Of a stretch of 64,000 nt of DNA, positions 56,973 to 59,568 are shown piece after piece (the stretch's first letter is position 1; every line of letters begins with the position of its first letter). The position numbers and the translations under genes were made by a program. A model generated the notes under the pieces. The model had not been told where the DNA came from. It ran no database searches and saw only the letters and a program-made list of their open reading frames with translations. Origin of the DNA: Faecalibacterium sp. An121 (lineage in GTDB: Bacteria; Bacillota; Clostridia; Oscillospirales; Ruminococcaceae); NCBI RefSeq assembly GCF_002160915.1, contig NZ_NFLM01000002.1, positions 1 through 64,000 on the forward strand. Direction: 5' to 3'.

Positions 56973-57836
56973 ATGAAGAATGCACTGCTCCGGCTGCGGG
57001 AGAGCTGCGCCTCCCTCAGTCCTGCCGAACAGCAGATCGCCCGCTATATCATCTCAAATCCCGAGGAATCCACCCTGCTCTCGGTCCGGCAGCTGGCCCA
57101 GCGGACCTTCACGTCCCCTTCCAGCGTGGTGCGGGTCTGCCGGTCGGTGGGCTTTGAGGGATACAAGGAGCTGCGCCGTGCTCTGGTGGGAGAACTGGCC
57201 GCCCTGGGAGAGACAGGCCGTCACCCCGAGCAGGAGCTGACCGCCGGGGACAGCGTCCACGAGATCATCCAGAAGGTGACCCAAAAGAATATCCAGTCCC
57301 TGTCCGATTCCCAGCGTCTGCTGGCGCCCGACACGGTGGAGCAGTGCGCACAACTGCTGGACAACTGCCGCAGCGTGCTGCTGTTTGGGCTGGGGTCCTC
57401 GCTGTGTGTGGCCCGGGACGCCTATCTCAAGTTCCTGCGGCTGGACAAGCCCTGCGTCATCAACGAGGACTGGCACGCCCAGCTCCTTTCGGCCCGCTAT
57501 GCCACCAGCCGGGACGTGGGGATCGTCTTTTCCTATTCGGGTCAGACGGTGGAAGTGATCGAGTGCATGAAAGCCATGAAGGCAAACGGCGCGCCCCTCA
57601 TTGCCGTCACCCGCTATTACCCCTCCGAAGTGGCCAAGCTGGCCGACTACAATCTTTACATTGCGGCCAACGAGTCACTTTTCCGCAATGGGGCCATGTC
57701 CTCCCGTCTGGCACAGCTCAACGTGGTGGACATTCTGTACACCACTTATGCCAGCCTCCACTACGAGGACACCCTGCGCAAACTGACTCTGACCCATATC
57801 TACAAGCCCGGCGAGCCGGAAGACGCCGCGCCATAA
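56973..57836 (+). CDS. murR: RpiR/MurR-family regulator of MurNAc salvage
   Basis: The 287-residue protein has the N-terminal RpiR helix-turn-helix (about 1-75; LSPAEQQIARYIISNPEE, SSVVRVCRSVGFEGYKE) and a C-terminal SIS sugar-phosphate-binding domain (about 125-260; VLLFGLGSSLCVA, VFSYSGQTVEVIE). Divergent from murQ, it is most likely the MurR-type repressor released by MurNAc-6P. ATG 56973 follows GAGGAGG; longer readings begin inside the operator. Confidence 0.9.
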   Translation: MKNALLRLRESCASLSPAEQQIARYIISNPEESTLLSVRQLAQRTFTSPSSVVRVCRSVGFEGYKELRRALVGELAALGETGRHPEQELTAGDSVHEIIQKVTQKNIQSLSDSQRLLAPDTVEQCAQLLDNCRSVLLFGLGSSLCVARDAYLKFLRLDKPCVINEDWHAQLLSARYATSRDVGIVFSYSGQTVEVIECMKAMKANGAPLIAVTRYYPSEVAKLADYNLYIAANESLFRNGAMSSRLAQLNVVDILYTTYASLHYEDTLRKLTLTHIYKPGEPEDAAP

Positions 57837-57851
57837 AGCTGTATATGCGTC

Positions 57852-57886
57852 AGGGCGAAAAAAGCGCCCGCCAAAGATGCGGGCGC
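57852..57886 (-). terminator. Terminator of the flavodoxin scar unit
   Basis: GCGCCCGC pairs with GCGGGCGC; the A6 before it gives T6 on the minus strand. It ended the minus-strand unit that is now a scar. Confidence 0.75.
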
Positions 57887-57934
57887 GCCAGGCTTCTTGT
57901 CCGGACTGCGGCCTGTCACGGTTTGGGCCGGGCC

Positions 57935-58166
57935 TTACAGTTCCAGGCCGCCGACCCATTCGGTCACTGCGGCCGGGGCGTCCAGCACGCTGCTGCGGGA
58001 GATGGAAAGCCCGTCCTCCCAAACGGCAGCGCCCGGCTGGAGCTGCTGGATGGTCTGGATGGTGCCGGCAAACCGGCTGCCGCCGTGGACGGTAAAGGGC
58101 ACGATGGTCTTGCCGCTCAGGTCATAAATAGACTTTTGTGGGATACGAATACGTAAACGCTTGCAT
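57935..58166 (-). pseudogene. Deletion scar: alcohol dehydrogenase start joined to flavodoxin end
   Basis: After an intact AGGAGG site the frame reads MQAFTYSYPTKVYL and stops. This is how iron-containing alcohol dehydrogenases begin. In the next frame the sequence runs from QKSIYDLSGKTIVPF through FAGTIQTIQQLQPGAAV and LSISRSSVLDAPAAVTEW to LEL and a stop, the last 60 residues of a flavodoxin. A deletion has removed most of a dehydrogenase gene and the front of a flavodoxin gene and fused the ends out of frame. The family matches are by recognition. Confidence 0.75.
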
Positions 58167-58228
58167 GGTTTCTGCCTCCTGTACACATTCGAATGAACAG
58201 CTGTGTCCCGCCCGGCTCGTTTGGTCTC

Positions 58229-58257
58229 TTGTGGAACGGGAAGTTTCCTGCTATAAT
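58229..58257 (+). promoter_or_regulatory. Promoter of merR-rpiR
   Basis: TTGTGG (58229-58234) and TATAAT (58252-58257) are 17 bp apart, with the TGC extension. The transcript crosses the MerR dyad before the gene. Confidence 0.65.
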
Positions 58258-58286
58258 GCAGAGGGCAGGACCGTTTGCTGCTTCCG

Positions 58287-58317
58287 ATTATAAACTCCGG
58301 TTGTAACAACCGGTCAA
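58287..58317 (-). promoter_or_regulatory. MerR-type promoter with 19-bp spacer and dyad
   Basis: On the minus strand TTGACC (58312-58317) and TATAAT (58287-58292) are 19 bp apart, the over-long spacer typical of MerR-activated promoters. A perfect 17-bp palindrome, CCGGTTGTAACAACCGG (58297-58313), fills the spacer. It points at the dehydrogenase-flavodoxin scar. Confidence 0.9.
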
Positions 58318-58360
58318 GTCCCCCATTTTAAATTTTTTGTGAATGAACCGGGAGGCTGCC

Positions 58361-58801
58361 ATGATCTATACCATGATGCAGGTGTGCAAAGAGGCGGATA
58401 TGACCTATCAGGCCCTGAAATTTTACTGCAACGAGGGCCTTGTGCCCTATGTCAAGCGGGACCACAACAACCGCCGGGTCTTTGATGAGCGGGATCTGAA
58501 ATGGATCAAGGACCTGGTCTGTCTGAAACGGTGCGGCATGAGCATCCAGGAGATGAAGGAATACCTGGAGCTGTGTTTGCAGGGCCCGTCCAGCATCCCC
58601 CAGCGCAAGCAGATGCTGGAACGCAAGCAGGAGGCCCTGCGCAGCACCATCCAACAGCTGGAGGAAAGCGTCGCCTACATCGACTGGAAACAGACCTTCT
58701 ACGACGAGGTGCTGGCGGGCAAGCGCCCCTACGAGAGCAATCTCATCCCGGCCGGCGGCCAGACAGAATATGCCAAGACGGGGAGGGACCCGAATCTATG
58801 A
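58361..58801 (+). CDS. MerR-family transcriptional regulator
   Basis: The 146-residue protein has the MerR winged helix (MQVCKEADMTYQALKFYCNEGLV, RVFDERDLKWI) followed by a dimerisation coiled coil (about 80-115) and a short tail without metal-binding cysteine clusters. Regulators of this subgroup often sit next to oxidoreductase, flavodoxin or alcohol dehydrogenase genes. ATG 58361 follows GGGAGG; ATG 58343 is weaker. The stop overlaps the next start (ATGA). Its direct target is now only a scar. Confidence 0.88.
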   Translation: MIYTMMQVCKEADMTYQALKFYCNEGLVPYVKRDHNNRRVFDERDLKWIKDLVCLKRCGMSIQEMKEYLELCLQGPSSIPQRKQMLERKQEALRSTIQQLEESVAYIDWKQTFYDEVLAGKRPYESNLIPAGGQTEYAKTGRDPNL

Positions 58802-59568
58802 AACTTGAAAAGCTGATCCAGGACAAGGGGCTGACGGGCACCGAAGCCGCCGTGCTGGAATACATCGTGGCAAACCTGGACCATGTGCTGCGCGACGGGG
58901 TGCGCGGGGTGGCGCGGGCCAACTTCACCTCCACCTCCACCATCATGCGGCTGGCCAAAAAGATGGGCTATGGCGGGTTTGTGGATATGTGCTACAAGCT
59001 GCGCTCGCTGGTGGAGATGCCCCAAAAGACCGAGCAGGAGGAAGTGGACTTTCTCAGCAGCTTCGGCACCGTCTCCCTGCTCAACTACAACACCTACACC
59101 CAGGTCAAGAGCTGCGCCCAGCAGATCATCCGGCAGACCGAACGGACCATCTTCATCTATGGCACCGGCTTTTCGGGCACGGCGGGCGAATACCTCTATC
59201 ATAAGCTGCTGAATATGGGCAAGCACTGTCTGTTTGCCAGCGGCGGCGATTCGGTGGGCATCTTCGAGAACTCCCTGGACCGGATGGGGATGTTCATCGG
59301 CATCTCAAAGTCGGGCGAGACCTCCCTGGTGCGGGACAAGATCAAGACCGCCCAGGAGAACGGCGTCTTTACGGTGGCCATCACCGGCGACCATGAGAAC
59401 AGCGTGGGCCAGTTCGCCGACATCTGGTTCCGGGTGGAGGATCTGTGGAAGCTGGACGATCTGAACGTCATGCCCAACACCTTTTTCCCCCAGACCCTGA
59501 TGCTGATGGAATTGATCGCGTATGAATACCGCCGCTTGTGCAAGTCCGACAATGACCTGCCGGTGTGA
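58798..59568 (+). CDS. RpiR-family regulator of the alpha-glucoside PTS
   Basis: A 256-residue RpiR regulator: helix-turn-helix (about 1-75; LTGTEAAVLEYIVANLDHV, TSTSTIMRLAKKMGYGGF) and SIS domain (about 105-230; IFIYGTGFSGTAGEYL, FIGISKSGETSLVRD). It precedes a PTS permease and a GH4 6-phospho-glucosidase and is the probable GlvR-like controller, sensing a phosphorylated disaccharide. ATG 58798 overlaps the MerR stop by 4 bp; longer readings overlap merR. Confidence 0.88.
   Translation: MKLEKLIQDKGLTGTEAAVLEYIVANLDHVLRDGVRGVARANFTSTSTIMRLAKKMGYGGFVDMCYKLRSLVEMPQKTEQEEVDFLSSFGTVSLLNYNTYTQVKSCAQQIIRQTERTIFIYGTGFSGTAGEYLYHKLLNMGKHCLFASGGDSVGIFENSLDRMGMFIGISKSGETSLVRDKIKTAQENGVFTVAITGDHENSVGQFADIWFRVEDLWKLDDLNVMPNTFFPQTLMLMELIAYEYRRLCKSDNDLPV

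Follow-up and report, generated by a model that had tools for sequence, protein, structure and literature searches.

The minus-strand unit divergent from a merR gene in Faecalibacterium sp. An121 is very probably the remains of an electrophile- or aldehyde-response operon controlled by an NmlR/AdhR-like MerR regulator and lost by a recent deletion. Comparison of the surviving pieces with intact genes shows that the window (the whole 64,000-nucleotide stretch of DNA analyzed, positions 1 to 64,000 of contig NZ_NFLM01000002.1) retains nothing of the sequence that separates codon 14 of an iron-type alcohol dehydrogenase (ADH) gene from the final quarter of a flavodoxin gene. The features of the locus are as follows, with scores from a position weight matrix (PWM) where given.

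58798..59568, plus strand: RpiR-family regulator gene (HTH_6 and SIS; Pfam)
58361..58801, plus strand: merR gene, 146 aa, NmlR/AdhR-like, Cys54, intact (Pfam and PDB matches)
58312..58317, minus strand: -35 element TTGACC (read directly)
58297..58313, minus strand: primary MerR operator, perfect 17-bp dyad CCGGTTGTTACAACCGG (read directly; PWM score 29.6)
58287..58292, minus strand: -10 element TATAAT, 19-bp spacer (read directly)
58284..58300, minus strand: second box, step 13, weak, overlapping the -10 (PWM score 5.9)
58271..58287, minus strand: third box, step 26, weak (PWM score 4.7)
58258..58274, minus strand: place of the fourth box, step 39, absent in the window (PWM score -18.3)
58175..58180, minus strand: ribosome site AGGAGG (read directly)
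58125..58166, minus strand: ADH remnant, 14 codons, stop at 58124-58122 (match to ADH)
58125..58126, minus strand: deletion junction, one base either way (comparison with the hybrid gene of sister locus L014)
57935..58126, minus strand: flavodoxin C-terminal remnant, 63 residues plus stop (Pfam and sister match)
57858..57886, minus strand: intrinsic terminator (stem 57886-57864, 8 G-C pairs, T6)

The deletion scar

The frame that opens at the ATG at 58166 reads MQAFTYSYPTKVYL and then stops, while the flavodoxin tail lies in a different frame from the ADH codons (58126-57938, with its stop at 57937-57935). An earlier note, made from the sequence alone, had described this unit as 14 ADH codons joined out of frame to the last 60 residues of a flavodoxin. 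Matches to a dehydrogenase and a flavodoxin were sought for the two parts and both were found. In the ADH half, 12 of the 14 residues are shared with the Candidatus Gemmiger faecigallinarum ADH, MQAFVYSYPTKVYF. The flavodoxin half is recognized as Pfam Flavodoxin_4 (E-value: 2.2e-5; 24.4 bits, the cut-off being 24) and is 75% identical over 63 residues to a hybrid protein of a sister species. The out-of-frame fusion is thus as described, but the tail has 63 residues instead of 60 and codon 14 is partly made by the junction, so that ADH codons 1-14 and residues 188-250 of a 253-residue reference flavodoxin remain in the window. Measured against the sister hybrid gene, the two sides of the junction overlap by approximately 1 bp, and one recent illegitimate deletion with such an overlap would produce this arrangement.

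The junction was not found outside the window's own genome: it occurs in 6 of 135 fetched loci, all of which are stretches of that genome. When the remnant was compared with 60 relatives, the only long match was to a flavodoxin tail in genome G004, that of the sister species (79% identical over 190 bases). The same short frame in relatives, which would count against a deletion, was found neither in the 135 fetched loci nor in the 60 relatives.

The intact operon and its promoter

Genome contigs were scanned with the window MerR, giving 80 loci in which operon genes were located by tblastn with operon proteins. The divergent side of these loci is a mosaic of genes for EFR1, carboxymuconolactone decarboxylase, iron-type ADH, a RibD-like protein, a hydrolase, flavodoxins, an FMN reductase and aldo-keto and short-chain reductases; the names EFR1, ADH, hydrolase, decarboxylase and one flavodoxin are backed by Pfam, and the others are a reading of the sequences. 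A merR gene divergent from both a complete ADH gene and a complete flavodoxin gene, the arrangement that the earlier note had suggested looking for, was found in eight loci, with the nearest flavodoxin type present in each (L031, L033, L036, L041, L054, L060, L071 and L073, of 78 loci). Because these relatives carry the complete genes at this place, a deletion inside a merR-controlled operon is well supported. The same comparison shows the MerR regulator, its operator and the ADH/flavodoxin operon to be recurrent partners among the relatives.

By eye, the operon flavodoxins of L033, L036, L040, L054, L060 and others have a lipoprotein-like start (signal peptide and LAACG-type motif), a location not usual for flavodoxins. 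In L043, L074 and L076, a single frame contains two flavodoxin-like stretches.

Direct reading bore out the promoter claimed earlier, with its 19-bp spacer and perfect 17-bp dyad, as well as the ribosome site and terminator of the minus-strand unit. On the minus strand, the series of TTGACC, spacer dyad and TATAAT starts at a distance of 43 bases from the start of merR. Two terminator-like sites were found compared to a mean of 1.0 in shuffles, one of the two being the operator dyad itself. The operator is found at the same place and with the same spacing in 72 of 78 related merR loci (L014-L091), the exceptions being L024, L059, L070, L077, L084 and L087. In the window's genome there is no second copy of the operator: the 21-base stretch covering the -35 and operator is unique when up to 3 mismatches are allowed, and an operator search near the three other iron-type ADH genes (55%, 29% and 29% identity) gave no second site. 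A chance promoter is ruled out by the presence of the operator in 72 of the 78 relatives and by the genome-unique 21-base stretch.

Age of the loss and the sister species

In the sister species Candidatus Faecalibacterium gallistercoris (L014), merR is followed by EFR1, which the window lacks, and then by an in-frame ADH(38)-flavodoxin(110) hybrid. The window tail differs from this hybrid at 39 of 189 bases, with 7, 9 and 23 changes at the first, second and third codon positions, respectively; without constraint, the chance of at least 23 of 39 changes falling at third positions is 0.0009. The dN (0.145) and dS (0.607) of the tail are near those of merR (0.123 and 0.529), and its dN/dS of approximately 0.24 is like that of merR. 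There is no stop within the 63 codons of the tail, and comparison with the tails of 19 relatives shows one departure from columns that are at least 90% conserved, which is shared with L014. The tail still diverges like coding sequence, in support of the recent loss proposed in the earlier note. Most of its divergence arose under constraint; either the loss is recent or hybrids of the L014 type are functional, the latter being judged unlikely because these hybrids lack the front half of the flavodoxin.

Alternatively, an ancestor of the window may already have carried an in-frame ADH-flavodoxin hybrid like the one in Candidatus F. gallistercoris, in which case the first deletion would be shared and that of the window would be a second, smaller one. 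The same two genes are joined in both species, the gap in the window spans the L014 junction and the merR genes of the two group together, weakly (95/65), but the merR neighbours differ (in the sister genome G004 the murR-like gene lies on a different contig and the following 1.5 kb contain no merR), EFR1 is present in only one of the two species and the coding-like pattern of the tail since their split fits independent losses unless the hybrid is functional. On this evidence we regard shared descent from a hybrid as possible but rather doubtful. As the comparison covered one genome of this species, the scar is possibly a strain-level variant.

At 6369-8033 of L014 lies a serine-recombinase gene (Resolvase and Recombinase domains) that is oriented opposite to merR and extends into its 3' end.

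The regulator and its neighbours

The merR gene is intact, as claimed previously: it has a full frame and its product departs only once from columns that are at least 90% conserved among relatives. The protein matches Pfam MerR_1 (PF13411; E-value: 4.9e-12), and at E-values of 0.1 or below Pfam detected only MerR domains in it and no cobalamin-binding domain. Its nearest solved structures are PDB 3gpv, 5d90, 5d8c and 5e01 (E-values of approximately 1e-18). Position 54 is occupied in 75 aligned rows, and 73 of these, including that of the window, have a cysteine there. Judged from its sequence, the window has the features tested for the NmlR/AdhR clade, namely a MerR winged-helix domain, short length, Cys54 and an operator with a 19-bp spacer before a divergent dehydrogenase operon (of which only the remnant is found here). 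Among the related MerR proteins with a full frame, just one is not shorter than the window protein (146 aa); those of L045 and L068 start one codon later.

The merR stop codon and the ATG of the RpiR-family gene overlap as ATGA (58798-58801), and behind the latter gene are PTS EIIC/EIIB and family 4 glycosidase genes. Alignment with Faecalibacterium genomes ends at 57809-57832 in 11 of 11 fetched relatives, corresponding to the end of an RpiR/murR-like gene (56973-57836), and resumes exactly at 58798 in G002. This is the only other one of 61 genomes with the RpiR-family gene (E-value ≤ 1e-30), and it has no close merR (best E-value: 4.9e-4). As the relatives' alignment ends before the remnant and resumes at 58798, the remnant and merR form a module of their own.

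It is unlikely that the PTS and family 4 glycosidase genes to the right of the regulator have become its new target and are the reason for its retention. The overlap of its stop codon with the start of the RpiR-family gene heading that cluster, and the occurrence of that gene without merR in G002, are consistent with such rewiring, but the genome has no second operator copy and the overlap may reflect no more than the site at which the module inserted. The survival of the regulator is probably due to the short time elapsed, and perhaps also to translational coupling ahead of the RpiR-family gene.

Repeated erosion of the operon

Within 6 kb of related merR genes, ADH was scored as intact in 30 cases, broken in 14 and cut by contig ends in 3. 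The 14 broken genes, of 44 scorable, include a second ADH fragment of L021 and the in-frame internal losses of L043 and L052, which might be shorter working forms, and exclude the remnants of L014, L019 and the window, which are too short for the scorer. Automatic scoring of EFR1 gave 19 intact, 8 broken and 1 cut. The flavodoxin counts (FLDa, 22 intact and 8 broken; FLDb, 11 and 15) were kept out of the recurrence claim because N-terminal linkers vary and the automatic test over-calls broken genes. The forms of damage are diverse: EFR1(1-109) is fused to the end of ADH in L019, ADH(1-113) is fused to the end of a flavodoxin in L086, EFR1(1-54) is followed by ADH from 284 in L044, three cut genes stand in a row in L042, ADH is reduced to its last 46 residues in L091, and internal losses are found in L027, L035, L043, L052 and L064.

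As a control, ADH genes were compared in 50 genomes of the 80 loci (at least 150 rows, reduced to 145 by merging five second fragments). Operon type was defined as an identity of at least 59%, to which a 55% Adlercreutzia row (the copy beside its merR) was added by hand; the class includes copies away from merR. Among the rows listed, 12 of 46 operon-type genes were broken compared to 6 of 99 paralogs (Fisher p = 0.002), a contrast that may be overstated as divergent paralogs reduced to short fragments are more easily missed, and some of the broken genes may be contig-end cuts. The regulator itself is broken in 3 of 78 loci (a stop at codon 7 in L066, a frameshift in L090 and a lost N-terminus in L092), the 78 being L014-L092 minus the contig-cut L089, with L093, which begins at a contig end, left out. 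The difference from ADH (14 of 44) has a Fisher p of 4e-5 and is biased towards intact merR because merR was the query.

A merR tree, built from the relatives found here and having few columns and many open forks, carries 17 broken and 28 intact labels (L067, scored as a contig-end cut, is labelled broken). These labels require 11 changes, at least 5 of which are forced by starred branches, compared to a mean of 13.8 for shuffled labels; as few changes as observed occurred in 35-38 of 500 shuffles, and the broken label is slightly clustered. Faecalibacterium stands beside Merdivicinus, Acetatifactor and Blautia in this tree, and such mixing of families suggests horizontal spread. Across the compared loci, breakage of this operon recurs in gut Clostridia and some other lineages, through several independent events. 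The window shows operon loss caught in the act, with a sensor and promoter outliving the genes they once served, and the intact and half-eroded versions in dozens of relatives make the tempo of regulator and target loss measurable.

Although the window comes from a single assembly of 62 contigs, an assembly artefact is very improbable, as the junction lies well inside a 203-kb contig of a genome that is 99.3% complete and 0.07% contaminated, and comparable broken loci are present in isolate genomes (L064, L065, L077 and L091).

Predicted behaviour of the switch

In MerR systems of this kind, the uninduced regulator sits on the spacer and holds the promoter, and electrophile stress leads to distortion of the spacer and a start of operon transcription. 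The inducer class proposed for the window is taken by analogy from the NmlR/AdhR family. A triggered regulator is still expected to distort the 19-bp spacer, giving rise to a transcript of about 420 nt that runs from approximately 58280 to the terminator at 57858. This transcript would encode a useless 14-residue peptide; the switch is predicted to fire with nothing of use being made.

That the short transcript or the 14-residue peptide has acquired a new function and is kept by selection would fit the intact primary operator, -35, -10, ribosome site and terminator, but is hardly credible, as the unit is in no other genome searched (60 relatives, fetched loci and viral contigs) and matches no Rfam family at cut-off. 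A structured RNA was likewise rejected, the only candidate being Trp_leader, far below the Rfam cut-off (20.5 against 41 bits).

A 13-bp array of MerR boxes

The primary operator is followed in many relatives by further dyads at 13-bp steps. Scanning the leaders of 73 relatives with the matrix of the primary operator gave positive scores at steps 0, 13, 26 and 39 in 72, 48, 47 and 43 relatives, respectively, counts that come from loci related by descent and hence are not independent; the step-13 score gains from outer bases in common with the first box. With this matrix, none of the 73 relatives scored above zero at any other step from 1 to 51. Exact half-sites fall on the 13-base period in 138 of 140 cases for the left type and 106 of 108 for the right type, and in the fourth box the halves are paired in 49% of cells, a value reached in 0 of 2000 shuffles. 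The array spans the -35/-10 spacer and continues into the transcribed leader. All four boxes are present in 28 of 74 loci (the window counted among the 74), and a Mediterraneibacter/Blautia group has neither the third nor the fourth.

The window has the first three boxes. The earlier note held that the control elements survive; this stands for the primary operator, -35, -10, ribosome site and terminator, but with the fourth box absent it may not hold for every element. The fourth box has likely decayed in the window, because the sister L014 has it (score of 15.9). Its absence is no mark of broken loci, since it is present in 10 of 16 of them and absent in 6, including the window. Six other loci have the same pattern of three boxes without the fourth, among them L017, which is near the window in the merR tree.

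DNA boxes appear to be a better reading of the repeats than a leader RNA hairpin, because a hairpin would give the same dyad but need not reuse the operator half-sites. We tentatively propose, as a reading nearly as open to doubt as to belief, that MerR dimers may occupy dyads spaced every 13 bp from the -35/-10 spacer past the start site to approximately +25, forming a cooperative, steep switch or, in the uninduced state, a roadblock, and that the operons behind such arrays are repeatedly shed by internal deletion while the switch is kept, with the window as a fresh case. The further boxes might confer cooperativity or a block to early elongation. If bound, the array would make this a rarely seen type of promoter for the family, whose usual description is one dimer on one spacer. 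No description of a 13-bp box array for this MerR clade was found among the matches listed in the literature searched, which included parts of PMC5045206.

Comparison with known systems

In the MerR family, the DNA is kinked at the centre of the palindromic dyad (PMC9909328, in part). Tandem arrangements are described for CarH/CarA, in which repeats around the -35 are bound cooperatively by two dimers or a tetramer (excerpts of PMC9304148). MerR-type DNA-binding domains on tandem repeats are common to both systems, but CarH and CarA are cobalamin-binding repressors on 11-bp direct repeats, while the window has a 13-bp dyadic period running from the 19-bp spacer into the leader and a regulator with MerR domains only. 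CvkR is also of the MerR type, and its site may cover the transcription start instead of occupying a long spacer; as described in PMC9938897, it has a single 15-nt motif per promoter and no 13-bp array.

The closest parallels are the NmlR/AdhR regulons, which include nmlR-adhC-estD of Haemophilus and Neisseria and adhA, yraC and yraA of Bacillus subtilis (excerpts of PMC4776306). Like the module described here, these pair a divergent alcohol dehydrogenase gene with the gene of a short MerR protein that has the conserved sensing cysteine; a carboxymuconolactone decarboxylase gene is likewise found in relatives of the window. They differ in that the dehydrogenase here is iron-type and accompanied by EFR1, a hydrolase and lipoprotein-like flavodoxins, in the 13-bp box array and in the loss of the operon from the window. 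According to the same excerpts, Neisseria gonorrhoeae retains a regulator of this clade, nmlR, beside a dead dehydrogenase gene: its adhC is inactivated by one frameshift, whereas nearly the whole operon is deleted in the window.
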